Below are positions 8,524-64,000 of a stretch of DNA of 64,000 nt, in pieces (position 1 is the first letter of the stretch; every line of letters begins with the position of its first letter). The position numbers and the translations under genes were made by a program. The notes beneath the pieces were generated by a model that saw nothing but the letters and a program-made list of their open reading frames with translations, had not been told where the DNA came from and ran no database searches. The DNA lies in the NCBI RefSeq assembly GCF_003337555.1, contig NZ_QPJK01000006.1, positions 496,001 to 560,000 on the forward strand, written 5' to 3'. Origin of the DNA: Pseudorhodoferax soli. GTDB taxonomy: Bacteria; Pseudomonadota; Gammaproteobacteria; Burkholderiales; Burkholderiaceae_C.

Positions 8524-8530
8524 GCCGGCC

Positions 8531-8713
8531 TCAACGGTCAGGCGCGACGAGCGCCGTGTCGGACGAGGCTCCGGGCGCAGCCGAAGCGCAATGCTTCGGC
8601 GTTGACCTGGGAGCCCGGCAGAGGTAGGGCAACTTTCTGCGCGCCACCACCACGGCGATCCTTCCAAGCAGAACACCGCAGGTGCGCGGCTTGCTCTCTT
8701 CGTGCGAAGTCAT
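8531..8713 (-). CDS. Small hypothetical ORF upstream of the 163-residue gene
   Basis: A 60-codon ORF starting MTSHEESKPRTCGVLLGRIA. Its main support is GGAGAG six bases before the ATG and its position seven bases upstream of the next gene in the same orientation. No family is recognised, and it could be a leader peptide or a chance ORF. Confidence 0.33.
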   Translation of the reverse strand: MTSHEESKPRTCGVLLGRIAVVVARRKLPYLCRAPRSTPKHCASAAPGASSDTALVAPDR

Positions 8714-9361: not shown

Positions 9362-10594
9362 ATGGATACCCAACGATTCGCCATCGCAGGCTGCGAGTTC
9401 GATGCTGACGACCCGGGGTTGCAGCCGGCGCTTGCGCGCGTGCACGAGTCGGCGGAGCGGCCCCGTTGCCTGTGCGTGCCGGGTGGCGTGGAGATGTACG
9501 TGGCACAGCATCGGCAACTGGTCGTCAAGCGCATGCCAGGGTCGGGCATGCGGCACCATCCGGGTTGCCCCTCCTACGAGCCCGACGCGCAGCAATCAGG
9601 CCTGGGCGAGCTTTTGGGCGAGGCGGTGCTGGAGCGCAGTCCGGGCAGCTTCGAGCTGCGTCTGAATTTTCCGTGGACGCGCGTGCAGAGGCGCGGGGTG
9701 CCCCGCGGCGAACCACAGGAGCCGGCCGAAGTCGTGGTTGCGCGCCGGCAGATGAGTCTGCGCGCGCTGATGCACTTTCTCTTTGATCGGGCGGGCATCA
9801 ACCGCTGGTCGCCGGCAATGGCAGGCAAGCGCAACCAGGGCGTGCTGCACAAGTACCTCATGGAGGCTGCGGACACCGTCACTGCGCGTGGCCTCACGCT
9901 TGCCGAACGGCTCTACGTGCCGGAGCCGTTTTCCGAGGCGGGACGTGACGGTGCCGCCCGGCGGCGCCGGGAGAAGCTCGCCGTGCTCCATCCTCGGGAC
10001 GGACAGAGTCCGCTTGCCATCGCGCTCGGGGAGCTCAAGGGCTGCGACAGCACCGCACAGGGCTGCCGCATCTGGATCAAGCACGCACCCGACGCACCGC
10101 TGCTGGCAGCAACCCGTACCTGGGAGCGCATCGAGCGCACGTTCGGGCCGCTGCTGGAAGCGCGCCATGCCGATACGGGGCATCGGGTGCGCTTGGTCAT
10201 GGCAGCCTTGATCCGGGCCCGACGCGAGCACACGTATGAGCTCGATGCGGCCAGCCTGATGCTGACCAATGAACAATGGATTCCATTGGACGGTGTGCAC
10301 GAGCTGGCGCTGGTGCAGGAGCTCATCGCCCAAGGGCGGCGCTTCATCAAGCCGCTGCGTTACGACGCGCGCACGGTGGCGGCGTTTCCAAACGCTCTGC
10401 TGCTCGACACAGGTGGCCAGCCCGTGCCGCTGCACGTCGTGAGCGCGTTCATGTCGGCGAAGGACCGTGCAGTGAAGGAAAAGGCCGCTCAGGATGCCGG
10501 CAAAGCCTGGGTGTGGCGCACCGACTCGCCAATGCCAGATCTGCCACCTGCACATCCGGTTTCGACGCGGAAGAGCGCATCGGTTTCGTCGTAG
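9362..10594 (+). CDS. DUF1173 domain protein
   Basis: A 410-residue protein whose beginning carries the DUF1173 signature: RPRCLCVPGGVEMYVAQHRQ then LVVKRMPGSGMRHHPGCPSYE, with Cys and His residues spaced like a zinc site. DUF1173 proteins are encoded on conjugative elements of proteobacteria and have no assigned function. The start at 9362 begins MDTQRFAIAGCEFDADDP; the track ORF extends 92 codons upstream without protein character. The C terminus after PMPDLPPA looks slightly altered, which may reflect decay, since the next gene is a pseudogene. It is roughly full family length. Confidence 0.8.
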   Translation: MDTQRFAIAGCEFDADDPGLQPALARVHESAERPRCLCVPGGVEMYVAQHRQLVVKRMPGSGMRHHPGCPSYEPDAQQSGLGELLGEAVLERSPGSFELRLNFPWTRVQRRGVPRGEPQEPAEVVVARRQMSLRALMHFLFDRAGINRWSPAMAGKRNQGVLHKYLMEAADTVTARGLTLAERLYVPEPFSEAGRDGAARRRREKLAVLHPRDGQSPLAIALGELKGCDSTAQGCRIWIKHAPDAPLLAATRTWERIERTFGPLLEARHADTGHRVRLVMAALIRARREHTYELDAASLMLTNEQWIPLDGVHELALVQELIAQGRRFIKPLRYDARTVAAFPNALLLDTGGQPVPLHVVSAFMSAKDRAVKEKAAQDAGKAWVWRTDSPMPDLPPAHPVSTRKSASVSS

Positions 10595-10794
10595 TGGTTC
10601 TTCGCGCAGCTGTCGGGTGCGCTGGAGCGGGGCGACCCCACTATCAAGGGCGCTTGGTGGCGGCGATACCGACCTTGTGCTCGCCAACCACTCTCTGGTT
10701 CTGGCACCTACTGCGTCCGGGACGAGCAGCACGTTGCTCAAACTGGGCTGCGTTCCCGCAAGGCAGCGCGCCGCGGCGATGCCAGTGGCATCCA

Positions 10795-11190
10795 GACTGC
10801 GAAGCTCGACGGCGATGTTCCTTGCATGTATCTCCGTTGAGGTCGACGAGCGACTGGCCCACGCGATCCGACGGATGCACGAGAAACCGGATGCATCGTG
10901 GACCGTCGCCCAGTCGCCCAGTTCGCGCGGGAAGCCGCGATGTCGCGGTCGGCGTTCTTCACCCGGTTCGGCCGACTCGTCGGTGGACGCCGATGGAGTG
11001 ACTGCTCAGATGGCGCATCGCGCTCGCAAAGCGCCTGCTCAGCCTGGCCGGCGCTACGGTCGCCGAGGTCGCTGGGCGCCCCGGGTACGGCTCCGCCAGC
11101 GCATTCAGCGTCGCATTCACGCGGCATGTCGGCGAGCCTCTAGCGCACTTTGCTCCCCGCGATCGTGAGACGCGCATGGTCCGGTCATAG
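10795..11190 (+). pseudogene. Frameshifted AraC-family regulator (C-terminal half)
   Basis: Three frames together spell an AraC/XylS DNA-binding domain. One frame gives DERLAHAIRRMHEKPDASWT, the next FAREAAMSRSAFFTRFGRLV, and the third, after an in-frame TGA in the PME(Y)LLRW motif at about 11000, gives LLRWRIALAKRLLSLAGATV and VAGRPGYGSASAFSVAFTRH. That completes both helix-turn-helix motifs. The cupin-like sensor half is not recognisable upstream. With two frame changes and a stop, it cannot make a normal protein. Confidence 0.75.
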
Positions 11191-11417
11191 GATGCCCAAT
11201 GGCCGCTCAGCAGCGATTGCCGCCGTTCGCGTCGCCGATATGAAAGTCATCTATGCAGGAGGTCACGCATTCGGGTCTCCCAATATTCGCCTTCAGATGA
11301 AATTGGCGGCTCGAGCATGGCCCCATGCATTGTCAGCTGCAGGGAATGAATCGTTGGGCTGCCGAGTGCTCAATTTTCAGATCGCAACCCCGCTTCAATA
11401 GATTTCCGGTGATCCGC

Positions 11418-13568
11418 TCACATCAAGTCGATCGAAACCGGCCTGCCGACATGCCAGCCCTGCGCATGGTCGACGCCGATCTCGCCCAGGGCCGTCATGG
11501 TGGCTTCGGTCTCTACCCATTCGGCCACGGTCTCGAGCCCGCACAGGTCGGAGATGCGCCGGATCGACTCGACGATGGCCCGATTCACCGGGTCTGTCAG
11601 CAGCGAGCGCGTGAAACTGCCGTCGATCTTGACCTGGTCGACTGGCAACTGCTTGAGGTAGCTGTAGGAGGACAGGCCCACGCCGAAATCGTCCAGCGCG
11701 AAGCGCACGCCGATTGCCTTGAGCGTGTGCATGAAGCGCAGTGCTGCCGCAAGGTCGCCCATGGTCGCGGTCTCCGTGATCTCGAAGCACACCCGTTCCG
11801 GTTTCAGATCCGTCTGTGCAAACAGGCCGGATACATATGCCAGGAATTCAGCGTCGCCGATGGACTGGCCGGACAGGTTGATCGAAGCCTCCACGCCGGG
11901 CCGGGCGACCAGCCATTCCAGCGTCTTGCGCACGACCCACCGGTCGATGGCCTGGATCAGGTTGTAGCGTTCGGCGGCCAGGATGTAGGGCGTGGGCGCC
12001 AGCAGCGTGCCGTCGTCGCCGCGCATGCGCAGCAACATCTCGCCGTGCTGCAGGGCACCCGGGCGCGGGGACAACCGGACGATCGGCTGGAAGCACAGCG
12101 CAAACCGGTCTTCGTCCAGCGCCCGCCGCACCTGGGCCACCAGGCTCATCTCCTGCCGCTGGGCCTGCAACTCCTCGTCGCCGCGGTCGAACACGTGGAT
12201 GCGGTTGCGGCCGCGGGCCTTTGCCGCGTTGCAGGCCAGGTCGGCATCTGCCATGCTGGTCGCCGCCATGCCGTCCTGCCCATGGACGAGCGAGATGCCG
12301 ATGCTCGCCGTCACCTGGAAGACCTGGTTCTGCCAGGAGAAACGGTGGGCCTCCAGCGCGCTGCGCATCCTTTCGGCCACGCGCAGGCCGGCGTTCAGCG
12401 AGCAGGCCGGCAGGATCAGGCCGAACTCGTCGCCGCCCAGACGGGCCAGGGTGTCGCTGGGGCGCAGGCTCGCCTGCAGGATGGTGGACACCTGGCGCAG
12501 TAGGAGGTCGCCCCCTGCATGGCCGACCGCATCATTGACCACCTTGAACTGGTCCAGATCCATGTAGACCAGCAGGTCGCTGTGTTGCTGCGAAGGCGAG
12601 CGGCGCCGTAGCAACGTCTCCAGGCGCCGCTCGAACTCGCGGCGGTTGGCGATGCCGGTCAGATGGTCGTGGCTGGCGTCGTGCGCCAGCTGGCGCACCA
12701 TGGCGCGCTCCTCGGTCACATCCCGACCGACGAACACGCTGCCCATGATCGCGCCCGTGTCGTCGCGGATCGGCGAGACCGTGCTGGACACCTGGCGTTC
12801 GCTGCCGTCGGGGCGGATCAAGGTCGCGTCGATCAGGCCGGCCTTCCACAACGCCTGTGGCTGGGGCTCGGGGTCGATCGGCTCCCGGGTGGCGGACCAG
12901 ACCATCTCGCCGAGCGCCTGCACCGTCTGCCCCATGACGTGGGCTTCCTCGACGCCGAACAGCTGCAGCGCGGTGGGGTTGATCGAGACGATGCGGCCGT
13001 CTGGACCGGTGGTGACGACCGCTTCCGCGATCGAGCGCAGGGTCACGCGCCATTGCTCGGACTGAAGAGACAGGCGCCGGTTGGTGGCGCGCAGTTCGGC
13101 AGCAGCGGCTTCCGCCTGGCGCTGCGCCTGCAGCAGTTCGCGTTCGTGGCGCCGTGTGGCGGTCGCATCGAAGACGGAGAAATTGACGACTGCCGCATCA
13201 CGCGAGTCCAGACGGCGGACGGCGCAGACGAGCACCGGCAGCCGCTCGCCATCGGGCCGGACGATCTCCAGCATCAGCTCGTTGACGATACCGTATGCCT
13301 CCAACAGCGGAACGCAGTGGGTCTCGTACATGATTCGACTCGCTGGTGCCAGCAGATCTTTGAAACGCCGGCCCGAAAGATCTTTGCCGGTGCGGGCAGA
13401 CCAGTCGGCAAAGCGCGCGTTGGCGCGGCGGATGCGCCCATCGGCCCATGTTTCCACCAGGCCGCAGGACGCGTCGATCTCCAAGGGCTCGAACGCGAGG
13501 GGATCGGTGTCAAGGTCGGGCACGGTCTTGAGGATCCGGGTCAGGGCGGGGATGGTGCTGGCGTTCAT
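11418..13568 (-). CDS. PAS-PAS-GGDEF-EAL cyclic-di-GMP enzyme
   Basis: A 716-residue cytoplasmic protein: PAS at about 30-145, a second PAS at about 170-290, GGDEF at 300-465 and EAL at 480-716. The cyclase motif GGDEF is intact at 378-382. An RxxD inhibitory site (RPSD, 369-372) lies five residues upstream, so feedback by c-di-GMP is expected. The EAL signature is EML, but the metal and catalytic residues look present (NLSGQS, FEITET, ALDDFG, VKIDGS, TVAEWVE), so phosphodiesterase activity is plausible. No transmembrane segment is seen. Its ATG overlaps the stop of the hydrolase gene (ATGA), indicating translational coupling and a signal passed through the PAS domains. Confidence 0.92.
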   Translation of the reverse strand: MNASTIPALTRILKTVPDLDTDPLAFEPLEIDASCGLVETWADGRIRRANARFADWSARTGKDLSGRRFKDLLAPASRIMYETHCVPLLEAYGIVNELMLEIVRPDGERLPVLVCAVRRLDSRDAAVVNFSVFDATATRRHERELLQAQRQAEAAAAELRATNRRLSLQSEQWRVTLRSIAEAVVTTGPDGRIVSINPTALQLFGVEEAHVMGQTVQALGEMVWSATREPIDPEPQPQALWKAGLIDATLIRPDGSERQVSSTVSPIRDDTGAIMGSVFVGRDVTEERAMVRQLAHDASHDHLTGIANRREFERRLETLLRRRSPSQQHSDLLVYMDLDQFKVVNDAVGHAGGDLLLRQVSTILQASLRPSDTLARLGGDEFGLILPACSLNAGLRVAERMRSALEAHRFSWQNQVFQVTASIGISLVHGQDGMAATSMADADLACNAAKARGRNRIHVFDRGDEELQAQRQEMSLVAQVRRALDEDRFALCFQPIVRLSPRPGALQHGEMLLRMRGDDGTLLAPTPYILAAERYNLIQAIDRWVVRKTLEWLVARPGVEASINLSGQSIGDAEFLAYVSGLFAQTDLKPERVCFEITETATMGDLAAALRFMHTLKAIGVRFALDDFGVGLSSYSYLKQLPVDQVKIDGSFTRSLLTDPVNRAIVESIRRISDLCGLETVAEWVETEATMTALGEIGVDHAQGWHVGRPVSIDLM

Positions 13569-14420: not shown

Positions 14421-16139
14421 TCAGATGCGTGTCCATCCGCCGGTGTCGCGGACCGTGGGTGCCATGGCGGTCTGCAGGCGCAGAGCGCGCGGGCTGGCAG
14501 CGCGGTTGCGCTGTGCCGATGCCGATGCCGATGCGGGCCACTGGGGCGCGTGCGCCTCGTGCGCATTGTTAGCTTCGTGCGCATCGAGCTTGAACATCGC
14601 CACCGTGTCGACCAGCTGCTGGGCCTGCTGCTTGAGGTTCTCCGCCGCGGCGGCGCTTTCCTCCACCAACGCGGCGTTCTGCTGCGTCACATGGTCCATC
14701 TGCGAGATCGCCTCGCCGACCTGCCCGACACCCTGGCTCTGCTCTGCGCTCGCCACGCTGATCTCGCCGACGATGTCGCTCACGCGCTGGATGGCGTCGA
14801 CGATCTCCTGCAGCGTCTCGCCGGCCTGGCCAACCTGCACCGAACCGTCGGCGACCTGCTCCACGCTGTCGGTGATCAGGGTCTTGATCTCCTTCGCGGC
14901 GTCGGCGCTGCGGCGTGCCAAGTTGCGCACCTCGGTCGCCACGACCGCGAAGCCGCGCCCCTGCTCGCCTGCACGGGCCGCTTCCACGGCCGCATTCAAA
15001 GCGAGGATGTTGGTTTGGAACGCGATGCCGTCAATCACGGTGATGATCTCGGCGATCTTCTTGGAGCTGTCGTTGATGCCGCGCATGGTGCTCACGACAC
15101 GCGAGAACGCGGCCCCGCCCTGCACGGCGATGCCGCTGGCATCCTGCGCCAGCTGGTTGGCCTGCTGGGCGTTGGCGGCGGTGTTGCGCACCGTAGTGCC
15201 CACTTCGTCCATGGTCGCGGCGGTCTGCTGCAGCGCTGCGGCCTGCTCTTCGGTCCTGCTGGACAGGTCGAGGTTGCCTTGTGCGATCTGCTCGCTAGCG
15301 GTGGCGATGCTATCGGCGGCGCCCCGCACCTGGCCGATGAGTGTGACCAACTGGCGCTGCATGGCACCCATGGAGGCGAGCACGCTACCCGCGGGCGCGT
15401 CGTCCACGCCTGGGACCGGGCCGAGGTCGCCCTGGGCGACACGCCGGGCCGCTGCGTTCAGTTCGGCCGGCTCGGCACCGAGCGCTGCAAACAGGCGGCG
15501 CACGATCAGCCAGCCCAGCAGCATCGCCATCGCGACGGCGCCCGCACTGACCGCGAGCAGCATCGTACGTTGCGATGCGTAGGCGGCGGCCGCCTCGTCG
15601 ACCTTGGCCGTCCCCTGCGACTGGATGTACGCGGCGTAGTCCCTCGATGTGGCCAGCAGCTGGGCCAGCAGGGGGCGGCACTCGACGTTGATCTTCTCGA
15701 CCGCTTCGGCCCGGCGATCGTTCGCGGCTAGCTGGACGATGGACAGCGCCACCGGTGCATAGGCCGATTCGACCTTGTCGATCGCCGCCACCATGGCGCG
15801 CTCGCGCGCCGAGATCCCGGCGCCCGCCACTTCCTGCTTGAGCGCCGCCATCGTGGACTGCAGCTCTTCATGGGACTTGACGGCCGCATCCTTGTGCTGG
15901 GCGATCTGGTCTGCCGAACGGACGAGCACCATGTCGCGCACGGCGGTCGCGCGAGCGCTGGCCAGGATGCGGACGTTGACGGCCAGGCTCTCGCGCCGGG
16001 CCTCGCCCAGGACGTAGTCGGCAAATTGCCGGTTGACCTCGCCCAAGCTGCCCAGGGCGAAGTAGCACACGAGCAAAACTAGCAGGGCCAGTGTGCCGAA
16101 GGCGATGGCAAGCTGCCGTTTGATGGATGGACTCTTCAT
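14421..16139 (-). CDS. Methyl-accepting chemotaxis protein
   Basis: A 572-residue inner-membrane chemoreceptor. TM1 spans about 11-31 and TM2 about 192-213, enclosing a 160-residue periplasmic helical bundle. HAMP follows to about 268, then the cytoplasmic coiled coil. Its hairpin tip is intact ([20 protein letters not shown], about 372-391, then [10 protein letters not shown]). It couples to CheA/CheW, which are not in this window. The low-complexity tail (Ala/Ser/Arg) has no NWETF-like CheR tether. It is the first gene of a likely three-gene operon with the RsbQ-like hydrolase (19-base gap) and the c-di-GMP enzyme, and is divergent from the response-regulator gene. Confidence 0.95.
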
Positions 16140-16207
16140 GGTGTGTGACCTCGGTGGAAAGCGGCCGGGAGATAAAATGCTCCTTTGCTACAAATTGTGC
16201 CACTCAA

Positions 16208-16236
16208 TCATTTATTCGCGATGAGCGAATAAATGA
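16208..16236. promoter_or_regulatory. 12-bp perfect inverted repeat (operator candidate)
   Basis: TCATTTATTCGC and GCGAATAAATGA flank a 5-base spacer (GATGA) in the divergent region between the MCP and the response regulator. It is AT-rich in GC-rich DNA and covers the upstream ATG (16233) of the regulator ORF. This favours an operator or promoter element and a start at 16272. Confidence 0.6.
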
Positions 16237-16271
16237 ATTGCGTGGAAAAGTCTTTGTTTTCCGGACCGTCG

Positions 16272-16958
16272 ATGCTTCCTACCACCCTTGCCTTGGTCGA
16301 TGACGACAGCGAGTACAGCGAATTTCTGTCGCAGTACCTGCGCGACCAGGGGGTGCAGGTCGACACCTTCGGGGACAGCAACGACCTGTTGGCGCACCAC
16401 GACGCCTATGGGTATGGCTTCTACGTGCTCGACCTGATGCTGCCTGGCGTCGACGGCGTGGAACTCGTCAAGGTGCTGCGGCGGCGCACGGATGCCGGCG
16501 TGCTGGTGGTGTCGGGCCGGGTCGCGCCGGACGTCTTCACGCAGGTGCTGGGTGCCGGGGCCGACATGTACCTGTCCAAGCCCGTTCAGTTCGACCAGGT
16601 CGCCCTGGCCATCCAGTCGATCCACCGGCGCACGGGCCCGGCGGGGCCCCAGGGAACGGTGTGGAAGCTGGACCGGCGCGCGCGCCAGTTGGTGGCGCCG
16701 GACGGCGCCCGGGTGGAGCTTAGCGAGACCGATGTCACGGTGATCGAGTGCTTCCTGGAGGCCGATGGCGAAGTCGTCAGCCGCGAGACCCTGCGTAGCC
16801 GACTCGGCAAGTCATCGGGTGCCGATGCGGCAGACGGCTTGAACGCCACCATTTACCGGCTGCGCCGCCGCATCGAACGGGCTACGCCCGAGCTGGTTCC
16901 GCTGCAGTCGAAGTCGGGCGTGGGGTACGTGTTCCGCGCAAACCTGAAAGCCTACTGA
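16272..16958 (+). CDS. OmpR-type response regulator
   Basis: A 228-residue two-component regulator. The receiver domain (about 1-115) has the acidic pocket VDDD, phospho-acceptor Asp54 in VLDLMLPG, a Ser in place of the usual Thr (VVSGR) and Lys in YLSKP. A winged-helix DNA-binding domain follows (about 135-228), with LNATIYRLRRRIE as recognition helix and VGYVF as wing. An ATG at 16233 would add 13 residues, but it lies inside an inverted repeat and the added residues are not domain-like. The gene converges on the histidine kinase gene 32 bases away, its likely partner although not co-transcribed with it. Confidence 0.9.
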   Translation: MLPTTLALVDDDSEYSEFLSQYLRDQGVQVDTFGDSNDLLAHHDAYGYGFYVLDLMLPGVDGVELVKVLRRRTDAGVLVVSGRVAPDVFTQVLGAGADMYLSKPVQFDQVALAIQSIHRRTGPAGPQGTVWKLDRRARQLVAPDGARVELSETDVTVIECFLEADGEVVSRETLRSRLGKSSGADAADGLNATIYRLRRRIERATPELVPLQSKSGVGYVFRANLKAY

Positions 16959-16990
16959 ACCTAGGGCGGGCCGCTGGCCTGCTCCGCGGC

Positions 16991-19036
16991 TCAATCGTCC
17001 AGCGACTGCTCGACGATCAAGCGCATGGTGCTGCCATGCGGAGTATTGCGCACCAGTTCGACACGGCCGCCGTGCAGCTCCATTACCCGGCGCACGATGT
17101 ACAGGCCCAGGCCGTGGCCCGGCTTGCCGGGTGGGTGCCGACCGCGGTTGCCGCGCTCGAACAGGCGACCCACCAGCTCGGCGTTGAAGCCGGGGCCCTT
17201 GTCCTCGACCTCGATCAGCAGCGCCAAGGGGTCGTCCGAATCGATCAACCGCACGACGACCGGCGCCTGCGGCGGGCTGTAGGTCAGCGCGTTAAGCAGC
17301 AGGTTGCGCAGCGCCAGGCGCAGCAGGCTCATATCGGCCGACACCGTGCGACTGGTCGCGATGCGCTCGACCCGGATCCGGTGGCGCTCCGCCGCGGGCA
17401 TGTCGGCCAGCACCACCGCCACAAGCGTGTCGATGTCGGTGTCCGCCCCTTCGACAGCATACTGGCGGGCCAGCAGCGACGCCCCGGCGAGGGTGTTATC
17501 GATGCTGGCCAGCACCTGCCCCATGACCGCCTGCGCGCGCCCCAGGCGCACAGACGCTGCCTGCTCGCCCACGTCCACCAGCACAGCAGCCGCGCTCTGT
17601 AAGGCCGCCGATGCGTTATTGAGCGGCTGCCTCACCTCGTGGGCCAGCACCTGGGTCATCTCCTCGCGCTCGCGCAGAAGCTCGCCGAGCGCCTTCGCAT
17701 GCTCCTCGATCTGCAAGCGCAAAGTCTGCTCGCGCAACAGTTCGGCCTTGCTTGTGCGGCGTTCCGTGATGTCCTGCACGGCCCCGGTCAGGCGCACCGC
17801 CCGGCCGCCTTCGCGTTCGACGTCGCCCACCAGCCGGACCCAGAGCTCCTTACCCTTGGCCGTGGTCAGGCGCAGCTCCAGGTCCCACGGCTTGCCCTCG
17901 GCAACGCTGCGGCGGATGGCTTCCTCGGCTAACGCGCGGTCGCCTTCTGCCAGGAAGCCGATCGCCTCGTCCAGGCTCAGGCGGTGACCCAGCTCGACCT
18001 CGTGGATGCGGCATGTTTCGTCCGACCAGCGCATGGCACCGGTCGCCAGATCGGCCTGCCAGCCACCAACGCGGGCAATGCGGCCCGTGCGGTCCAGGAA
18101 TGCCTCGCTTTCGCGCAACGCCAACTCGGCACGCTTGCGCGAAGTGATGTCCGTGCCAACACCGCGCAAGAGCCATCCATCGCCATCGCGTTCCCGTTGG
18201 CGATTGTTGGACCAGGAAACCCAGCGGTCCTCCCCATCTGGTCCGGTGCTGCGCGTCTCGCAGACGACGCTCTCTCCGCTGAGGAGGACGTGCTCTAACA
18301 CCCCTTGCACCATGGCCTGGTCGTCTTGACCCAAGAAAGCGAAAACGTTCGATCCGATGGCTTGCGCGGCATCGACGCCGTAGTAGCGCAGCCAAGCCGG
18401 GTTGGCATAGACGATCTCGCCGCGGTCGCGTACGAGTGCGACCAACTCACGCTGTTCCTCGACGAGTGCACGGTAGCGGGCCTCGCTCTGTGCAAGTGCT
18501 GCCTCGTACTTACTCCGGACGGACAAGGACCGGCGAATCAGGTCTCGTCTCATCATCAGCGCCTCGCCCACCATGTCGGCCAACATGCGCAGCATGCTGG
18601 CCTCGCGTTCACCCAGGTGCCCGGGCGTGCGGTCGATCACGCACAGCGTGCCGGCGCGGGAGCCGCCCGGCAGGATCAGCGGGGCACCCGCGTAAAACCG
18701 GATGTCCGGCGCCCCGGTAACCAGTGGGTTGTCGGCGAAGCGCGGATCGAGCGCAGCATTCGGCACCTCGAGCAGGCTGTCGCTCTGGATCGCGTGGGCA
18801 CAGAAAGCGACGTCGCGCGGTGTCTCGTTGACGCCGGGCAGGCCGACGTTGGCCTTGAACCACTGACGCTCTTCGTCGATCAGGCTGATCAAGGCGATGG
18901 GGGTGCCGCACAGCTCGGCGGCGAAACGCGCCATGAGGTCGAACAGCGGCTCTGGCGGGCTGTCCATGATCAGAAGATCGGTGAGCGCCGCGAGGCGAGC
19001 GGCCTCATCGGGGGGAAGTAACGGTGGTTGGCGCAT
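16991..19036 (-). CDS. GAF-PAS-PAS sensor histidine kinase
   Basis: A 681-residue soluble kinase without transmembrane segments. A GAF domain (about 25-160, starting near MDSPPEPLFDLMARFAAEL) is followed by PAS domains at about 185-300 and 310-425. The HisKA helix carries His466 in LAHEVRQPLNNA. The ATPase domain has the N box NLLLNALTYSPP, G1 DKGPGF and G2 GHGLGLYIV. Cytoplasmic GAF/PAS sensing suggests redox, light or small-molecule input. Convergence with the OmpR-type regulator gene argues that the two form a pair, although separate promoters are required. The start is supported by TGGAAAA directly before the ATG. Confidence 0.92.
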   Translation of the reverse strand: MRQPPLLPPDEAARLAALTDLLIMDSPPEPLFDLMARFAAELCGTPIALISLIDEERQWFKANVGLPGVNETPRDVAFCAHAIQSDSLLEVPNAALDPRFADNPLVTGAPDIRFYAGAPLILPGGSRAGTLCVIDRTPGHLGEREASMLRMLADMVGEALMMRRDLIRRSLSVRSKYEAALAQSEARYRALVEEQRELVALVRDRGEIVYANPAWLRYYGVDAAQAIGSNVFAFLGQDDQAMVQGVLEHVLLSGESVVCETRSTGPDGEDRWVSWSNNRQRERDGDGWLLRGVGTDITSRKRAELALRESEAFLDRTGRIARVGGWQADLATGAMRWSDETCRIHEVELGHRLSLDEAIGFLAEGDRALAEEAIRRSVAEGKPWDLELRLTTAKGKELWVRLVGDVEREGGRAVRLTGAVQDITERRTSKAELLREQTLRLQIEEHAKALGELLREREEMTQVLAHEVRQPLNNASAALQSAAAVLVDVGEQAASVRLGRAQAVMGQVLASIDNTLAGASLLARQYAVEGADTDIDTLVAVVLADMPAAERHRIRVERIATSRTVSADMSLLRLALRNLLLNALTYSPPQAPVVVRLIDSDDPLALLIEVEDKGPGFNAELVGRLFERGNRGRHPPGKPGHGLGLYIVRRVMELHGGRVELVRNTPHGSTMRLIVEQSLDD

Positions 19037-56224: not shown

Positions 56225-57364
56225 TCAAAGCTTGCGGGAGATCAGGTCGCGCTGGACCTCGCTGGTGCCGCCGAACACGCGCGTGATGCGGTAGTCGGTG
56301 AAGGCGCGGGCAATCGGGTACTCCAGCATGTAGCCGTAGCCGCCGTGCAGCTGCACCATCTCGTCGATGCACTTCCACAGCGTCTCGGTGGCGAACAGCT
56401 TGGCGATGGCGGCCTCCTGCACGCTGATGCGGCGCCTCATGTGCTCGCCGATGTAGTAGTCGACCAGCGTGCGCACCGCCACCGCCTGCGCCTTGATGTC
56501 GGCCAGCTTGAACTTGGTGTTCTGGAAATCCCACACCGTGCCGTCGAAGGCCTTGCGCTCCTTCACGTACTCCAGCGTCTGCTCCAGCAGGCGTTCGAGC
56601 TTGGTGGCGCAGTACACGGCGATGATCAGGCGCTCCTGCGCCAGCTCCTGCATCAGGCAGATGAAGCCCTTGTTCTCTTCGCCCAGCAGGTTGTCCACCG
56701 GCACGCGCACGTTGTCGAAGAACAGCTCGGTGGTGTCGGCGGCGGGCTGGCCCACCTTCGTGAGCTTGCGGCCGCGCCGAAAGCCCGCCCGGTCGACCTC
56801 GACCATGATCAGGCTCACGCCCTTGGCGCCGGCCGTGGGGTCGGTCTTGCAGGCCACCAGGATCATGTCGGCGTTCAGGCCGTTGCTGATGAAGGTCTTG
56901 CTGCCGTTGATGACGTATTCGTCGCCATCGCGCACGGCGCTGGTGCGGATCGACTTGAGGTCGGAGCCGGTGCCCGGCTCGGTCATGGCAATCGCCATGA
57001 TGTGCTCGCCGCTGCAGATCTTGGGCAGCCAGCGCTGCTTCTGCTCCTCGGTACCGAAGCGCACGATGTAGGGCGCGGTGATGTCCGAGTGCACCGACAG
57101 GCTGAAGCCCGAGACGCCCGAGCGGTGCAGCTCTTCCGCCAGCACGCAGGAGTGGCCGAAATCACCGCCGCCGCCGCCGTACTCGGTCGGCACGGTCACG
57201 CACAGCAACCCCTCGCGGCCGGCCTTGCGCCAGGTCTCGCGGTCGGTGCGGCCGGCCGCGTCCCACTCGGCCTGCCGGGGCAGGCATTCGCGCTCGAAAA
57301 ACCGCCGCGCGGTGTCGCGCAGCATCTCGTGGTCGTCGCGGTAGACGGTACGGTTGATGTTCAC
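56225..57364 (-). CDS. Acyl-CoA dehydrogenase, first gene of the operon
   Basis: A 379-residue single-subunit-type ACAD with all usual segments: IAMTEPGTGSDLKSIRTSAV, GSKTFISNGLNADMILVACK, QLHGGYGYMLEYPIARAFTD and RVFGGTSEVQRDLISRKL. It starts with GTG, preceded by AGGAG seven bases away. It opens the nine-gene minus-strand operon, so the operon promoter lies in the 178 bases shared with the divergent RelB-type gene. No regulator gene is adjacent, unlike the other catabolic blocks here. Confidence 0.92.
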   Translation of the reverse strand: MNINRTVYRDDHEMLRDTARRFFERECLPRQAEWDAAGRTDRETWRKAGREGLLCVTVPTEYGGGGGDFGHSCVLAEELHRSGVSGFSLSVHSDITAPYIVRFGTEEQKQRWLPKICSGEHIMAIAMTEPGTGSDLKSIRTSAVRDGDEYVINGSKTFISNGLNADMILVACKTDPTAGAKGVSLIMVEVDRAGFRRGRKLTKVGQPAADTTELFFDNVRVPVDNLLGEENKGFICLMQELAQERLIIAVYCATKLERLLEQTLEYVKERKAFDGTVWDFQNTKFKLADIKAQAVAVRTLVDYYIGEHMRRRISVQEAAIAKLFATETLWKCIDEMVQLHGGYGYMLEYPIARAFTDYRITRVFGGTSEVQRDLISRKL

Positions 57365-57542: not shown

Positions 57543-57851
57543 ATGGCTCTTGCCAATGCCGTTGTGCAAACACGCATCGCCGCCGACGTGCGGGACCGCG
57601 CCGTCGAGGTGCTCGACGGCCTGGGGCTGACGGTCTCGGATGTGATGCGGATCGTGTTGACACGCGTCGCCAACGAAGGCGCGCTGCCGGTCGGCCTGGT
57701 CGCCGACACGAAGGCGCACGACGCGTGGTTCCGCGCGAAGGTGCAGGAAGCGCTGGACGACCCACGCCCGGCCATTGCGCACGAGGATGTGGAGGAGCAC
57801 TTTGCCAAGCGCCGCGCGGCGGCGGCGTCGCGCAAGGGCGTGAAGGGCTGA
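57543..57851 (+). CDS. RelB/DinJ-type antitoxin, no toxin gene adjacent
   Basis: A 102-residue ribbon-helix-helix protein of the RelB/DinJ family. VVQTRIAADVRDRAVEVLDG begins the RHH domain and GLTVSDVMRIVLTRVANEGA completes it. The C-terminal half (AFRAKVQEALDDPRP-like region, then EDVEEHFAKRRAAAASRK) is the usual toxin-wrapping segment. RelE/YafQ-type toxins normally overlap or follow the antitoxin, but downstream there is only the LuxR gene. It may be an orphan antitoxin or a regulator. Confidence 0.82.
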   Translation: MALANAVVQTRIAADVRDRAVEVLDGLGLTVSDVMRIVLTRVANEGALPVGLVADTKAHDAWFRAKVQEALDDPRPAIAHEDVEEHFAKRRAAAASRKGVKG

Positions 57852-57945
57852 GGAGCATTCAGCGCAAGGGTGGCCGCCTGGATTGCGCAGCGCCATGCCT
57901 CGCATGGCGCGGGCAGGTCTCCGCGCCCACAATCACGCCCGACGC

Positions 57946-60816
57946 ATGCCCACCAAACCACCCGCCCGCCTTCACGAAGCCGAACCGGCCGACTCCGTGT
58001 TGAGAGCCCTGGTCGCCACCAAGCTCGTGCCGCCCCGCAACGCTGGTCGCATGGTTGCGCGCGAGGCGCTGCTGGCGCGCCTGATGGAGGCCCGCCGCCT
58101 GCGCTGCGTGGTGCTGCAGGGCCCGGCCGGCAGCGGCAAGACCACCACCCTGGTCGCCTGGCGCCAGGCGCTGCTGCCGCTGGGCTTCGACGTGGCCTGG
58201 CTCAGCCTGACGCCCGAGGACAACGAGCCCAGCCGCCTGCTCGACTACCTGCTGGCCAGCGTGGCGCAGGTGGCGCCCGCCGCCACGCAGGAGGCGGCCG
58301 ACTACGCTGGGCGCGGCGTCGACAGCGAGGCGGTGGAGCGCGCGCTGATCGCGCTGGTGCGCGGCATCGCCACCCATCCGCGCGAGCTGGTGCTGGTGCT
58401 CGACGACCTGCAGCACTTGACCGACCCGCGCATCCACGAGGCGCTGCAGTGGTTGGCGGACTACGCGCCGGCCCGCTTGCACCTGGCCCTGGCCTCGCGC
58501 GGGGCGCTGCCGCTGTCGCTGGACCGCCTGCGCGCCGAGGGCGGGGTGCTTGAGATCGACGTGCGCGACCTGCGTTTCTCGCCCGCCGAGTCCGACCGCT
58601 TCCTGCGCGCGCAACTCGGCAGCATCGGCCCGCGCGACGCGCTGGCGCTGCACGCGCTGTGCGACGGCTGGGCCGCCGGCCTGCAGCTGCTGGCCATCAA
58701 CTGGAAGAAGCGCCGGCAGGAAGTGGCGGCGGGCCAGCGCGGCGCTGGTGGCGCCATCAGTGCGGGCAGTGTGGCCAATGGTTCAGCCCAGGCGCCCGAC
58801 GCCTTTGCGCGCGCCCACGTGCAGGACCCGCAGGCCTTCGCCGCCTACTTCGAGAAAGAGGTGCTGGCCCACCTGGCGCCCGCCGACCTGGAGCTGCTGA
58901 CCAGCGTCTCGGCCTGCAGCCGCTTCTGCGCGCCGCTGTGCGCGGCCCTGCTCGGCCGGCCGGTGGACGACCCCGCCATGGCGCCGCTGCTGGCACGGCT
59001 GGAGGCCGAGAACCTGTTCATCGTTCCGGTGGACAGCAGCGCCGAGCGCGAGACCTGGTTTCGCCTGCACCCGCTGCTGCGCGAAACGCTGCGCCAGCGC
59101 CTGACCCAGCGCAGCGAGGCCGAGCAACGCGCGCTGCACCACCGCGCCTGGCAGTGGTTTCAGGGCCGTGGCCTGATCGACGAGGCGGTGCGCCAGGCCG
59201 TGGCGGCGGGCGAGGGCGCGGCGGCCGCGGCGCTGGTGGAGAAATCGGCCCACGGCCTGGCCGTGCGCGGCGAATTGCGCAAGCTCGTCGCGCTGGTGCG
59301 CCAACTGCCGCCGGCGCAGGTGCAGGCGCGCATCGGGCTGCGGCTGTGGATGATCCGCGTCGAGCTGTTCGCGCGCGAGCTGGATGCGTTCTCCACCAAC
59401 ATCGCGCGCCTGCGCCCCGACATCCCGCCGGACGACGCCGCCAGCCAATACTGGCTGACCCTGCTCGAAGCCTCGCTGGCCCTGCAGCGCGACGACACCG
59501 ACGCCGCCCAGGCGCTGCTGCCGCGCCTGCTGGCCGCGCCCGAGGGCGTGGACGCACTGGCCACCGGCGCGCGCGACAACCTGCTGTCGTGGCTGTACAT
59601 GCACCGTGGCGACTGCGAGCGCGCGCGGCGCGTGCAGCAGGACCAGCCGATCCGCCTGGTCGACGGCGTGCCGCTGCGCGGCACCTCGTCGGGCAGCCTG
59701 CAGGGCCGCGCGCTGGTCGGCCTCAGCTATGCCGTCGAGGGCCGCATGACGCAGGCCGAGCGCATCTACCGCGAGGTGCTGCGCGAGGCCGGCGAAGGCG
59801 GCAGCGCCTGCGTGGACGCGGTCTACCTCTCCACCGCGCTGCTGGGCGAGGTGCTGTACGAACACGACGAGACCGAGGCCGTGGTGGCGCTGCTGGAAGA
59901 CCGCGTGGACGCGCTGGAGCGCGTTTCCATCCCCGATTCGGTATTGCGCGTGCACCGCTCGCTGGCGGCCGCGCACTGGGTCGCCGGCCGCAGGCTGGAG
60001 GCCATGGCCTGGCTGGAGCGGCTGGAGGACTACAGCACGTCGCTGGGCCTGGACCGGCTGCTCGTGTTCAGCCTCACGCTGCAGGTGCACTACCGCCTGC
60101 AGATGGGCGACGTGGCCGCCGCCGAGGTCGCGCTGCTGCGGGCCAACGAGATCGATGCGCGGCATGCGCACGCAGAGCACAGCGCACGCGGCGAGATCGC
60201 CGTGGTCTGCGAACGCGCGCGCATCCGCTGGGCGCTGGCGCGTGGCGACATCGACGATGCGGCACGGCGCATCGCGCCGCTGATCGCCAACATCGAGGCG
60301 CGCGGTCGGCAGCGGCTGGTGGCGCAGTTGAAGCTGCTGCAGGCTTTGATCGAGCGGCGGCGGGGCAGAGGAGACGCGGCGCGCCAATGCACGCTGGCGG
60401 CATTGCGCAGCGGGCACCGGCTGGGGCTGGTGCGCAGCCTGCTGGATGCGGATCCGGCGGTGATGGAACTGGTGCGCGACGTGGCGCAGGATGCGGGGCT
60501 GGACCCGGTGCTGGGGTTCTATGTGGAGAGGCTGGAGGGGGCGGGGCGGCGGGTGTCAGCGGCAGCGGAGACGACCGTTGCAGCAGGCGCGGATGCGGAT
60601 GCCGAGCGGCGCCCGGTCGAGCCGCTGAGCGACCGCGAACGCGATGTGCTGGACCTGCTGGTGCAGGCAATGCCCAACAAGAAGATCGCGTTGGCGCTGG
60701 GGCTGTCGATCGATACCGTCAAGTGGCACTTGAAGAATATCTACGGGAAGCTGGGGGTGGCAGGGAGGGATGAGGCGGTGGCTTGGGTGCGGGGCGTGGG
60801 AGTGCGTGGTGCGTAA
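57946..60816 (+). CDS. MalT-like LuxR-family ATP-dependent activator (LAL)
   Basis: A 956-residue STAND-type activator. A nucleotide-binding domain has Walker A GPAGSGKTTTL (about 59-69) and Walker B LVLVLDDLQH. A winged-helix region and a long TPR-like helical repeat section follow (about 400-850). The C-terminal LuxR HTH (about 885-945) is LSDRERDVLDLLVQAMPNKK then IALALGLSIDTVKWHLKNIY. It binds ATP, senses an inducer and activates target promoters. The start at 57946 (MPTKPPARLH) is favoured over an ATG 21 codons earlier. Orientation and proximity suggest it could regulate the acyl-CoA operon, which lacks its own regulator. Confidence 0.92.
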   Translation: MPTKPPARLHEAEPADSVLRALVATKLVPPRNAGRMVAREALLARLMEARRLRCVVLQGPAGSGKTTTLVAWRQALLPLGFDVAWLSLTPEDNEPSRLLDYLLASVAQVAPAATQEAADYAGRGVDSEAVERALIALVRGIATHPRELVLVLDDLQHLTDPRIHEALQWLADYAPARLHLALASRGALPLSLDRLRAEGGVLEIDVRDLRFSPAESDRFLRAQLGSIGPRDALALHALCDGWAAGLQLLAINWKKRRQEVAAGQRGAGGAISAGSVANGSAQAPDAFARAHVQDPQAFAAYFEKEVLAHLAPADLELLTSVSACSRFCAPLCAALLGRPVDDPAMAPLLARLEAENLFIVPVDSSAERETWFRLHPLLRETLRQRLTQRSEAEQRALHHRAWQWFQGRGLIDEAVRQAVAAGEGAAAAALVEKSAHGLAVRGELRKLVALVRQLPPAQVQARIGLRLWMIRVELFARELDAFSTNIARLRPDIPPDDAASQYWLTLLEASLALQRDDTDAAQALLPRLLAAPEGVDALATGARDNLLSWLYMHRGDCERARRVQQDQPIRLVDGVPLRGTSSGSLQGRALVGLSYAVEGRMTQAERIYREVLREAGEGGSACVDAVYLSTALLGEVLYEHDETEAVVALLEDRVDALERVSIPDSVLRVHRSLAAAHWVAGRRLEAMAWLERLEDYSTSLGLDRLLVFSLTLQVHYRLQMGDVAAAEVALLRANEIDARHAHAEHSARGEIAVVCERARIRWALARGDIDDAARRIAPLIANIEARGRQRLVAQLKLLQALIERRRGRGDAARQCTLAALRSGHRLGLVRSLLDADPAVMELVRDVAQDAGLDPVLGFYVERLEGAGRRVSAAAETTVAAGADADAERRPVEPLSDRERDVLDLLVQAMPNKKIALALGLSIDTVKWHLKNIYGKLGVAGRDEAVAWVRGVGVRGA

Positions 60817-61054
60817 AGGGTGGATGGGGGGATCGGACTGAGGTTTGACCTTGGGCGGTGAGGCCTGGAGCGACGGGTATGCGCCCTCTGGAGTCCGTTG
60901 CCACGCAGCCTTGGATGGGGGCTGTGCAGCGAAAGCGGGCCCTCTTGGTTTCCCCGTTACCGGCTTCTGCCGAACGCATTGCTGCCTTTGCCGAGCAAGT
61001 GCCCAATTCGTGAAGCTACTCGCAGACCAGTAGTCACGGGTAGCCGGCGTCGAT

Positions 61055-62974
61055 TCAGTTGATCAATTCAACCTCGCCTTGATCGAACCATCCGTACTGG
61101 AGGATGGCGTTACGAGCCAGTGCAGGATCCGGCGAGTAGTAGACGATGGCCAAGCTCTTCTCGGCCCGGCTGCATGTCACGTAGAACAGGCGGCGGGTGC
61201 GGTCTGAACCGGTCTCTCGGCCGGCGGCTTCATTCTCACGGTCAGCCTTCGACTTCTCCTTGGTGCCAAAAAACTTATCGTAGGCAAAAAGGAAGCCTCG
61301 CGCCTCGTCGTCGTTGATCACTACAAGCACACGTGGAAACTCAAGCCCCTTGACGCCCTGGTGTGTCCCGAACTGCGACTGTCCTCGCGCGTACAAGTCG
61401 TAGCGCTCGATCTGGCTCAGGGGGGCTTCAAGCGCTTTGCTCCATGCGCTCAGCTCAGAAGTCGTGTCTTCCTCTTCTCCTTCCTCGGCACTCTCCATCT
61501 GACTGCCGTGCCCCGCGATATCCTCCATCGCTGCTGCCTTGGTGTCACCGGCAACGAACGGAGCCAGCGCTTCCGGGATGACAAACAGACCCGTCTGCGC
61601 AACAAATTCAAGCACCACTTGAGCAGTGATCTCGCGCTGCTCTGTGATCAGAGCCAGGAGCCCATCGCATGCCGCCTTGGCCTTGCCGAACTGCGCGACC
61701 TGATTCGATCCAGCCTCTTGGAGCGCTGCGCGGTCCAGAAGCGGCGATGACGCCTTGATGATCGCCGTAGCCCCAAACCGATCGTTCGCGCGAAGCGCCT
61801 TGACTAGCGGCAACACGTCCCGAATGAAGAATCCAAGACCTGCGCCGGCGCCTTGGAGTAGGCTCGTCCTAAGTTTTTCGATCGTCCAAAGCGGCTCGAA
61901 GAATTCCACGAAGCCGAATCGCCGAGCAGACATCAGATGCTCAAGCGCAAGCGTCTTCACCATGTCAGAGTTCTGCCAGGCCGGGTCGTCGGCTATCGTC
62001 GCCATACGTTGGCGCACTGTCTCTTCGATGGCGAAGGGGGCGGCGCCCGCTTGGGGCGCGATGAAGACCCGCACCACGCCCTCTTCAGCGTCGCTGCGTG
62101 GGACCTGTTCCTCGCCATCCACATCGCGGCGGATGCTGTTGATTACCTCGATGACGCGAGACGGGCACCGGTGGTTCATCCGCTTGCGAGGCATGGCCCA
62201 CCTAGCCGGGATGGCCTTGTCCAGCCGCTCCTTTCCGTCCGAGTAGATGCGCTGCATCATGTCGCCGAACAGTCCCAGGCTGAACCGTCCATGGAACTCT
62301 TCCTCCACATGCAGGAACGCGTCCATGAGCGTCTTGTTTGTGTCTTGGCTCTCATCAATGAGCAAGACCGGACACCGGCTGACCAACATTCGCCGCAGCC
62401 CGGGCTTGCTGGTCAGGAAGGCCGCCGTCATGGCGATGACCTCTGAATGATTCAGAGAATCACGCGTGCGGTTGTCGCTGGTCGGGCTGTAGATGAACTT
62501 GACGATGGAATCCATCCGCGCCAGTCGGCGGCGCTTGCTCTCCATGGACCGAAGCCGCTCAGCGCCCGCCTTCGTGTTAGCTCGCCCCTTCTTGTGCAGT
62601 TCCTCAAGCTCAGCAATCTCATCTTCGAGATTCTTGGCGACCCATTGACGGATGTCGGCGTTGAAGCCGCCGATCAGCGACCACGAGAATGCGTGGATCG
62701 TCATGACCTCTACCCGAGGGTCGAACTCGAGACGTTGCTTGATTTCGTCGCAGGCGGCGTTGGTGTACGTGATGACGCCAATCTTCTTGCCAGTCAGAGT
62801 CAGCTGCCGGCCGTACTCGCCATCGATCGTCTTCCTGACGGCGCTGACCAACGACCGTGTCTTTCCTGATCCAGCGCCTGCGTACAGGAAGAAGCTTCTT
62901 GGCTTGCCCAGGTCAAGACACTCGATGATCGTTGCGTCGGCCTCGGCGTCGAATTGATCGTCGGCGGCCGTCAT
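61055..62974 (-). CDS. gajB: UvrD-like helicase, Gabija GajB type
   Basis: A 639-residue superfamily 1A helicase. Motif I is YAGAGSGKTRSLV (31-43), Ia ITYTNAACDEIKQR, II VLLIDESQDTN (203-213), III GDMMQRIYSDG, IV RCPSRVIEVIN, V THQGVKGLEFPRVLVV and VI RRLFYVTCSRAEKSLAIVYY. GajB works with the GajA nuclease to degrade DNA when phage infection depletes nucleotides. The gene follows the nuclease with an ATGA overlap, the order found in Gabija loci. It is longer than the roughly 500 residues of studied GajB proteins; the added length lies between motifs IV and V and includes an acidic stretch (EEGEEEDTTSE). Confidence 0.82.
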   Translation of the reverse strand: MTAADDQFDAEADATIIECLDLGKPRSFFLYAGAGSGKTRSLVSAVRKTIDGEYGRQLTLTGKKIGVITYTNAACDEIKQRLEFDPRVEVMTIHAFSWSLIGGFNADIRQWVAKNLEDEIAELEELHKKGRANTKAGAERLRSMESKRRRLARMDSIVKFIYSPTSDNRTRDSLNHSEVIAMTAAFLTSKPGLRRMLVSRCPVLLIDESQDTNKTLMDAFLHVEEEFHGRFSLGLFGDMMQRIYSDGKERLDKAIPARWAMPRKRMNHRCPSRVIEVINSIRRDVDGEEQVPRSDAEEGVVRVFIAPQAGAAPFAIEETVRQRMATIADDPAWQNSDMVKTLALEHLMSARRFGFVEFFEPLWTIEKLRTSLLQGAGAGLGFFIRDVLPLVKALRANDRFGATAIIKASSPLLDRAALQEAGSNQVAQFGKAKAACDGLLALITEQREITAQVVLEFVAQTGLFVIPEALAPFVAGDTKAAAMEDIAGHGSQMESAEEGEEEDTTSELSAWSKALEAPLSQIERYDLYARGQSQFGTHQGVKGLEFPRVLVVINDDEARGFLFAYDKFFGTKEKSKADRENEAAGRETGSDRTRRLFYVTCSRAEKSLAIVYYSPDPALARNAILQYGWFDQGEVELIN

Positions 62975-64000
62975 GGTGCAGCCCCCGGCCCTGGGCCCGC
63001 GGCGTTTGCTGCCGAAGCCGCGATGGCCGGCGCTGCCATCAAGATTTCCACCTGCTTCTTCTTCATCTGTTCCAGCAGCCACTCCAGACCCTCGGCGATG
63101 TACTGCGGCACCTTCAGACTGTTGAAGTTTTCCGCCATCAAGACGTCGAGGGCGAACTCTGCCTTCTTGCCTTCCTTAAGCGCCGTGTACATGCTGGCAC
63201 CAACTGCGGTTACACCGCCACCATTCGCGATGGCAGTCCGGAACTTGGCGTTCAGTCCCGGGCCGGCAAACGCAGCAAAGAAGTCCACGTTCTCGAACAC
63301 GAGCGCGTCCTCAAACGTGTAGGGGTAAGCAGTCTCCTTGGCAGCGGTGCCTGGCATCGTGACCTCAACGGGTTTCTGGTACGCCACTCGCACAGCGAAT
63401 AGCGTGTCGCCCGCATCTGCGATCGTCTTAGCTGCAGGCTTCGCATTGATGAGGGCATCGACGTCGTCCAGCGCTGGCACCCAGGTCTTAAGTGTGGCGT
63501 TGTTGGTTTTCTGCCCAGCGCCCAAAGCCGGTTGGACTGATGAGCCGCCCGTCGCTGTCAGGCTGTCCAGGTCCGTGACGATCAGCGTCGACAAGCCCAG
63601 ATGATCAATCAAAGGACGCAGACGATGGGCGTGGCTACCGCCAATCTCCAGCAAGGTGACGTAGCTCTGATGCAGCACCTTGTAGTGAGCCCGAATGAAG
63701 TTAGGGATGAGCATGCGCTCGGCTGGACCCTCGACGAGGATCGCTGCGTCGGCGAAGAACAGGTCGGCGTGCTGCGCACGCAAATACCGGCTTACGAAGC
63801 GTTCAGTCTCCGTACCCTCCCCGAACACCTGCGAAACGTTAATAACCGTCGACACCGGCACCTTGGCCACCATGCCGGCCGGCAGCCTCCGGAAGTACCG
63901 CAAGCTAGCGAAAGCCGTCTCGTGCGCAACGTGGCTCGAGTGCGTGCTGACGATAAGTTGCGTGCGCAGGGCGTCGCTTTCTCCCAGCTCTGGGCGCCGG
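62971..64000 (-). CDS. gajA: OLD-family ATPase/TOPRIM nuclease, Gabija GajA type (C-terminal part)
   Basis: The frame is open to the right edge and gives about 343 residues of the C-terminal end. It enters with LIVSTHSSHVAHETAFASLR, the STHS switch of OLD-type ABC ATPases. A TOPRIM domain follows: AILVEGPAERMLIPNF holds the catalytic Glu and LIVTDLDSLT the DxD pair. GajA is a nucleotide-regulated nicking nuclease. The ORF track begins at a TTG at 63903, which is not a real start. Overlap with the helicase gene supports a coupled two-gene defence operon. The Walker A region lies outside the window. Confidence 0.82.
   Translation of the reverse strand, partial: RRPELGESDALRTQLIVSTHSSHVAHETAFASLRYFRRLPAGMVAKVPVSTVINVSQVFGEGTETERFVSRYLRAQHADLFFADAAILVEGPAERMLIPNFIRAHYKVLHQSYVTLLEIGGSHAHRLRPLIDHLGLSTLIVTDLDSLTATGGSSVQPALGAGQKTNNATLKTWVPALDDVDALINAKPAAKTIADAGDTLFAVRVAYQKPVEVTMPGTAAKETAYPYTFEDALVFENVDFFAAFAGPGLNAKFRTAIANGGGVTAVGASMYTALKEGKKAEFALDVLMAENFNSLKVPQYIAEGLEWLLEQMKKKQVEILMAAPAIAASAANAAGPGPGAAP

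Follow-up and report, generated by a model that had tools for sequence, protein, structure and literature searches.

The window studied here, a stretch of 64,000 nucleotides of Pseudorhodoferax soli DNA, carries at its right edge, on the minus strand, a two-gene unit of a nuclease and a helicase that we identify with high confidence as a Gabija system: complete and intact, belonging to the long-GajA clade and corresponding to a long form that has already been modelled. Few phage defences are as common as Gabija, and it is the gene order, an OLD/TOPRIM nuclease and then a UvrD-like helicase, that defines it. As a system the pair is ordinary; its long form could be a useful comparison with the well-studied Bacillus cereus model. 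Coordinates are positions within the window unless said otherwise, and the host genome measures 8.16 Mb.

Gene pair and profile matches

Within the window the unit is covered by two minus-strand open reading frames (ORFs), 61055..63082, which reads 675 residues from a GTG start, and 62971..63999, which is open at the window edge. With the ATG at 62974 taken as the helicase start the protein measures 639 residues, and the tetranucleotide ATGA at 62974-62971 joins the gajB start to the gajA stop in a four-base overlap; since 31 of 48 relatives, counted where the coverage of both genes reaches at least 90%, keep this overlap at exactly -4, the GTG start, and with it the 675-residue helicase, is the less likely choice. 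The nuclease frame runs out of the window, and its completion from the sequence to the right yields a protein of 784 residues encoded at 62971-65325 in window numbering. A sequence-only reading of this DNA had described an OLD/TOPRIM nuclease, recognisable by its STHS, VEG and DxD motifs, overlapping a UvrD-like helicase by four bases, and the ORFs, the Pfam matches and the motifs all agree with that description.

The assignment of both genes was made with PADLOC hidden Markov models only. The GajA model PDLC00093 matches the nuclease at E 3e-275 (914 bits; residues 1-762 of 784 on model positions 1-730 of 736) and the GajB model PDLC00111 matches the helicase at E 2.3e-242 (804 bits; residues 1-638 of 639 on positions 1-624 of 625), two scores far above chance, while the NCBIfam models for the retron Eco8 effector, PtuA, UvrD and RecB all fall far under their cut-offs. 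Pfam recognises AAA_15 (E 8e-37) and OLD-like_TOPRIM (E 1e-17; 2.7e-18 for the part inside the window) in the full nuclease, and UvrD-helicase (E 3e-18) in the helicase. The earlier call of Gabija is thereby upheld: the nuclease does have an N-terminal ATPase domain with a Walker A motif, and the profiles give GajA and GajB nearly end to end, the repair models being far weaker. The length that it expected of GajA is found as well, in that 784 residues, though more than the 578 of B. cereus GajA, fit the 736-position PADLOC model.

Distribution and genomic setting

Relatives were taken from 57 loci of a genome collection, of which 51 were kept for each gene at a coverage of at least 90%; an alignment of 43 of the 51 GajA sequences (A1) and one of the window protein with 45 of the 51 GajB sequences (A2) underlie the conservation described below. 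A GajB match occurs in 54 of the 57 loci, and the distances of GajA and GajB are correlated (r = 0.96 over 41 loci), which common descent alone would also give. The nearest GajA relatives belong to Duganella and a Comamonadaceae bacterium (about 90% identity) and to Chitinimonas, Rubrivivax and Diaphorobacter (89%), that is, GajA proteins some 89-90% identical are spread over different genera and families. The distribution is patchy, with 7 of 200 genomes surveyed across the order matching at E 1e-100, the host's own genome included, and the neighbourhood changes from locus to locus: no family of ORFs of at least 90 residues recurs in more than 8 of the 57 loci, counted over flanks of at most 6 kb in which many loci are cut by contig ends.

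The pair itself stands in a segment of low G+C content (about 0.60, against 0.65-0.75 in the left flank and 0.67-0.73 in the right), bounded on one side by a LuxR/MalT-like gene that ends at 60816, an assignment read from the sequence, and on the other by an OsmC-like gene at window-equivalent 65578-66033 (Pfam OsmC, E 4e-12). Plasmid relatives comprise 123 records, 86 of them covering at least 80% of GajA and 76 of the 123 predicted to be conjugative; among the three records that were read, the pair adjoins restriction-modification genes in one and a DEAD/DEAH-box helicase gene in another, and in the remaining one has Abi and TIR genes nearby. Two phage records hold relatives, one of which, an unverified faecal clone, has both genes well covered, and IMG/VR holds eight related loci in candidate phage. 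The pair was probably acquired horizontally as a compact cassette; flanking repeats were sought as marks of the insertion ends, and only short, chance-like matches were found.

Such a distribution sits poorly with the rival that we regard as the least improbable, improbable as it is, namely that the genes form a class 2 OLD/helicase DNA-repair pair which processes broken host DNA in the manner of AddAB or RecBCD and has no part in defence. The helicase does match the models of UvrD, Rep and RecB weakly (DNA helicase II 6.5e-12, RecB 7e-11), far under their curated cut-offs, and P2 OLD as well as the Gabija system of Pseudomonas aeruginosa PA14 act in connection with RecBCD (PMC12407980). A repair function, however, is at odds with the patchiness within the order, with the low G+C content and changing neighbours, with two of the three plasmid records, which place the pair beside restriction-modification or Abi and TIR genes, and with matches that run near full length to GajA and GajB and not to the models of repair proteins.

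An ORF of about 383 residues (109 in L053) lies near long Gabija pairs in 8 of the 57 loci (L014:10328-11479, L011, L019, L032, L042, L043, L049 and L053), and the copy that was scanned matched nothing in Pfam or PADLOC at the thresholds applied. It was considered as a conserved third gene and rejected, as it occurs in these 8 of 57 loci and not beside the window pair; it is a possible accessory gene.

Catalytic residues and selection

GajA has an N-terminal ABC ATPase with Walker A (GANNSGKT, residues 30-37) and a C-terminal TOPRIM domain with its glutamates, glycine and DxD (E532, E536, G563, D585 and D587), its motifs starting at about residue 419 (EEPEAHLH) and at residues 460 (STHSSH), 531 (VEG), 584 (TDLD), 670 (TFED) and 719 (GKKAEF). 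The Walker A glycine and lysine, E532, E536, G563, D585/D587, T670/E672/D673 and K721 do not vary among the 43 relatives of A1; the last two sets, candidates for the downstream part of the two-metal site, were matched by pattern or order and not by structure. The roles of the metal-site residues have been described for B. cereus GajA (PMC10822852, PMC10781630), in which a mutation of H320 partly relieved inhibition by ATP (PMC8136825), and the switch histidine of the window protein is, by motif, the counterpart of H320. Among solved proteins the chains of B. cereus GajA match the nuclease best, at E 2e-7 by single sequence and at 1.2e-15 when the 43-row profile is used.

All the helicase motifs noted in the sequence-only reading are found in the 639-residue GajB, starting at residues 32 (AGAGSGKT), 69 (TYTNAA), 92 (TIH), 207 (DESQDT), 237 (GDMMQRIY), 267 (NHRC), 537 (THQGVKGLEF) and 594 (RRLFYVTCSRA). 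They include Walker A and the DEXQD signature, here DESQD, and motifs I and II together with the cores of motifs V and VI do not vary across the 46 sequences of A2.

Both genes are under purifying selection: the ratio of nonsynonymous to synonymous substitution rates (dN/dS), computed against 7 and 6 selected near relatives, lies at 0.05-0.11 wherever dS was defined, in 11 of the 13 comparisons, the other two being saturated. A decayed, non-functional copy is accordingly very improbable. Decay does occur among the relatives, some of which are split or partial (GajA of L027, L031, L053 and L056; GajB of L007 and L031) or have no GajB match (L048, L051 and L057), whereas both window ORFs are intact, run near full length against the profiles, retain their catalytic residues and show the low dN/dS just given. 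That the nuclease is instead a PARIS-like, Septu-like or retron (Eco8-type) effector resembling GajA has in its favour matches to the profiles of AriA (E 6e-40), of the retron Eco8 effector (1.1e-12; 47.4 bits against a cut-off of 250) and of PtuA (1.8e-9; 37.1 bits against 500). It can be dismissed almost entirely, as these matches are far weaker than that to GajA, as the ATPase and TOPRIM domains are fused in one protein with a UvrD helicase adjoining, and as no reverse transcriptase was recognised by eye in the neighbouring ORFs, where no reverse transcriptase profile or non-coding RNA search was made.

Several observations weigh against the picture drawn here. At E 1e-3 the GajA model matches 10 and the GajB model 12 of 14 named control genomes, while at E 1e-100 the GajA model matches none of the 14; with loose-threshold matches in most controls, only strong scores count and weak ones are meaningless. 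The characterised B. cereus proteins share little sequence identity with the window pair, a single-sequence search with the helicase (phmmer) ranks Rep (0.0013) ahead of B. cereus GajB (0.002), and in a search with the A2 profile Rep, PcrA and UvrD outscore GajB, a ranking that makes close kinship with B. cereus GajB unlikely and leaves the identity as Gabija unaffected. Published GajA enzymes, moreover, disagree on specificity, that of B. cereus being specific and that of L. salivarius reported as non-specific (PMC13304284). Finally, no empty site was found: the OsmC-like neighbour was matched in 5 of 40 related genomes and in 1 of 5 of the same genus, and this last genome, the single one examined, had no other flank in common with the window.

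Helicase length, acidic linker and clade

The sequence-only reading had gone further and suggested a distinct subtype, on the grounds that the helicase is about 140 residues longer than studied GajB proteins and bears an acidic insert between motifs IV and V. The difference in length is real with respect to B. cereus GajB, a short form of 494 residues, but is no sign of a subtype. In a sample of 150 genomes of the phylum, OLD-like TOPRIM loci gave 40 matches in 33 genomes, and 20 of these, chosen mainly for a nearby helicase, were extended to yield 16 nuclease-helicase pairs; with their N termini trimmed, 14 of the 16 helicases measure 576-651 residues and the remaining ones, of 445 and 357, are perhaps truncated, so that the window helicase is of common size. 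The best 25 of 47 PADLOC matches likewise include 24 GajB models, 20 of them with at least 565 positions, and a subtype defined by helicase length was rejected.

The acidic insert, too, is present (residues ~467-515) but not conserved: across the 46 sequences it is a linker of 22-51 residues with a net acidity of 0-13 (median 8), and its interpretation as a new domain was rejected. The span from motif IV to motif V covers 270 residues in the window GajB and 244-272 over the 46 rows of A2, near the value of about 278 for Escherichia coli UvrD, a hand count on an alignment whose landmarks give 271 for the window protein, whereas the 2B subdomain of B. cereus GajB comprises residues 306-416 (PMC10822852). 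The extra length of GajB therefore appears to sit largely in a UvrD-sized motif IV-V region, with the variable acidic linker inside it. A conserved GIG motif of the UvrD type was not found in long GajB, the tripeptide occurring in 12 of the 46 sequences and being absent from the window protein; the host genome does encode it in another two UvrD-type helicases (L096 and L097), and it was not taken as evidence.

What stands of the proposed subtype is the clade. In the GajA tree of 39 rows the long forms, the window protein among them, number 25 and are set apart by a branch with a support of 100/99; this split was chosen after a quick tree, many of the rows had been retrieved for their similarity to the window, and the tree program warns that long branches meet there, so that the tree supports the clade, not its uniqueness. 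Two rows outside the clade measure 736 and 713 residues, and length alone thus does not define it. The models PDLC00093 and PDLC00111 cover the window pair near end to end and hence include it; the loci of Doron et al. were the source of the PADLOC models for such systems (PMC8565338), and the long form, indexed by PADLOC, is already known. A named long-GajA subtype was not found in the literature, as far as the available text goes, which is no proof that none exists. The claim of a distinct subtype is a weak one.

Comparison with characterised systems

The long-model families of PADLOC (GajA PDLC00093/PDLC00095, of 736/752 positions; GajB PDLC00111/PDLC00143, of 625/632) have the same gene order, similar lengths and near full-length matches, and no feature was found that sets the window pair apart from them. 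With the Gabija system of B. cereus VD045 (GajA 578 and GajB 494 residues; PDB 8jq9, 8sm3, 8tk1 and others) the window pair has in common the ABC ATPase with Walker A and switch histidine, the TOPRIM glutamate and DxD, and the adjoining UvrD-like GajB with DEXQD; the window GajA is about 206 residues longer, some 131 of which lie between Walker A and Walker B, some 22 before the TOPRIM glutamate and the rest after it. PA14 Gabija resembles the window pair in its gajA-gajB order and in the DESQ of motif II, and requires both genes and their active sites (PMC12407980). Class 1 OLD proteins (P2 Old; Thermus scotoductus OLD, 6p74) combine an ABC ATPase and a TOPRIM domain as the window GajA does, the match of 6p74 to the window nuclease reaching E 0.001 (5.8e-10 by profile), but are described, unlike the window pair, as being without a helicase partner (PMC10568477).

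Mutation of a lysine patch after DxD made B. cereus GajA non-specific (PMC10822852). Lysine or arginine residues within ten positions after DxD number five in B. cereus GajA, 0-3 in the 43 relatives (none in 15 of the 43) and none in the window protein. With the patch absent, non-specific cleavage is predicted, and we lean towards a window GajA that cuts without sequence preference, as reported for L. salivarius. B. cereus GajB, for its part, is described as without the gating helix, GIG motif and separation pin of UvrD and without helicase activity (PMC10681800), and the UvrD-sized motif IV-V region of the long form would have room for the elements missing there. That the long-GajA clade is mechanistically distinct, combining a sequence-indifferent nuclease devoid of the lysine patch with a GajB of UvrD-sized motif IV-V that may unwind DNA, is a tentative and rather doubtful proposal.

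Putative mechanism

Experimental Gabija papers were found for B. cereus, P. aeruginosa PA14 and L. salivarius, and structures of the GajA-GajB complex for B. cereus. In these systems a 4:4 complex of GajA and GajB is needed for defence (PMC10781630), nucleotides inhibit B. cereus GajA (PMC8136825), and PA14 Gabija targets linear DNA that is unprotected by RecBCD (PMC12407980). By analogy with such published work, which underlies what we propose for assembly, trigger, cutting and phage defence alike, the window GajA would form an oligomer scaffolded by its ATPase and serve as a docking platform for GajB, its TOPRIM nuclease being restrained by normal nucleotide levels or by RecBCD acting on DNA ends. 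Upon infection, the action of GajB on phage DNA, together with the loss of the nucleotide or RecBCD restraint, would release GajA to cut phage DNA through its two-metal TOPRIM site, probably without sequence preference, given the missing lysine patch. We consider this chain, taken as a whole, moderately plausible.

With its UvrD-sized motif IV-V region and without the specificity patch, a pair of the long form would help to tell whether GajB helicase activity and GajA sequence preference are general to Gabija or belong to the model system, and the two further Gabija pairs of the same genome, one long and one short, offer a natural comparison.

Feature coordinates

Table 1. Features of the Gabija locus in window coordinates, with the evidence for each.
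Feature	Position	Strand	Evidence and remarks
gajA, C-terminal part (end of ABC ATPase and TOPRIM)	62971..64000	-	Gene continues to window-equivalent 65325, 784 residues in total; PADLOC PDLC00093, Pfam
gajB, UvrD-like superfamily 1 helicase, 639 residues	61055..62974	-	ORF, Pfam, PADLOC PDLC00111
ATGA overlap, gajA stop/gajB start	62971..62974	-	ORF calls; kept in 31 of 48 loci
Low-GC stretch (~0.60)	60830..64000 (bounds approximate), on to ~65500	.	GC profile
STHSSH, ABC switch-histidine motif, GajA residues 460-465	63931..63948	-	S, T, H, S and last H invariant in A1 (43 sequences)
TOPRIM VEGPAERM, metal ligands E532 and E536	63712..63735	-	Aligned to B. cereus GajA E379/E383; roles from PMC10822852
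TOPRIM TDLD, DxD formed by D585 and D587	63565..63576	-	Aligned to B. cereus GajA D432/D434
TFEDAL (T670, E672, D673), proposed counterpart of BpOLD T506/E508	63301..63318	-	T, E and D invariant in A1; match to BpOLD by pattern, not residue alignment
K721, proposed catalytic lysine (B. cereus GajA K541/BpOLD K562)	63163..63165	-	Invariant (K720 in the numbering of L003, the Duganella copy); matched by order only
GajB motif I AGAGSGKT	62858..62881	-	Invariant in A2
GajB motif II DESQDT	62339..62356	-	Invariant in A2
Variable acidic linker between motifs IV and V, GajB residues ~467-515	61430..61576	-	22-51 residues in 46 sequences
GajB motif V THQGVKGLEF	61337..61366	-	T, H, G, V, K, G and F invariant in A2
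GajB motif VI RRLFYVTCSRA	61163..61195	-	R595, L596, Y598, V599 and R603 invariant in A2

Other elements in the genome and flanks

OLD-like TOPRIM matches number four in the host genome, the highest count in the sample of 150 genomes. A second long Gabija pair lies on the same contig at about 101-106 kb (L067:7231-9624 and 9549-11570), its GajA being 34% identical to that of the window (PADLOC 7.6e-246; GajB 8.4e-213). Upstream of it are weak, sub-cut-off matches to a Mu/TnsB-type transposase and to TnsA, and downstream follow a WYL gene, JetA and JetB (PADLOC) and a JetC-like ORF, for which no profile was run, together a Wadjet-like operon. The third pair, a short one on contig C13 (L069:6120-8054 and 8051-9700; PDLC00097 2.8e-267, PDLC00144 7.3e-233), is followed by an ORF of 379 residues (L069:9704-10843), for which neither Pfam nor PADLOC gave a match at the thresholds applied, and then by an ORF that by eye is VirB4/TraC-like, which would suggest a conjugative element. 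A lone OLD nuclease of 588 residues on contig C8 (L068:6777-8543; PADLOC Old 2.9e-71) lies near an Mrr-like protein, with no adjoining helicase among the ORFs listed at that locus.

Closer to the window pair, a RelB-type antitoxin gene occupies 57543-57851 (RelB 2.8e-12, PaaA2 1.2e-11); no toxin partner was recognised beside it by eye, and no toxin search was made. Beyond the window edge, an EF-G-like ORF of 470 residues (L002:7359-8771, window-equivalent ~67858-69270) is matched in the GTP-binding domain, domain II and domain III only, the usual C-terminal part being missing. An arrangement of an acyl-CoA-dehydrogenase-like and a LuxR/MalT-like gene, recognised by eye with no profile run, recurs on each side of the Gabija pair (window 56225-57364 and 57883-60816; L002:13595-14734 and ~14861-17700), and these two-sided copies suggest a local duplication.

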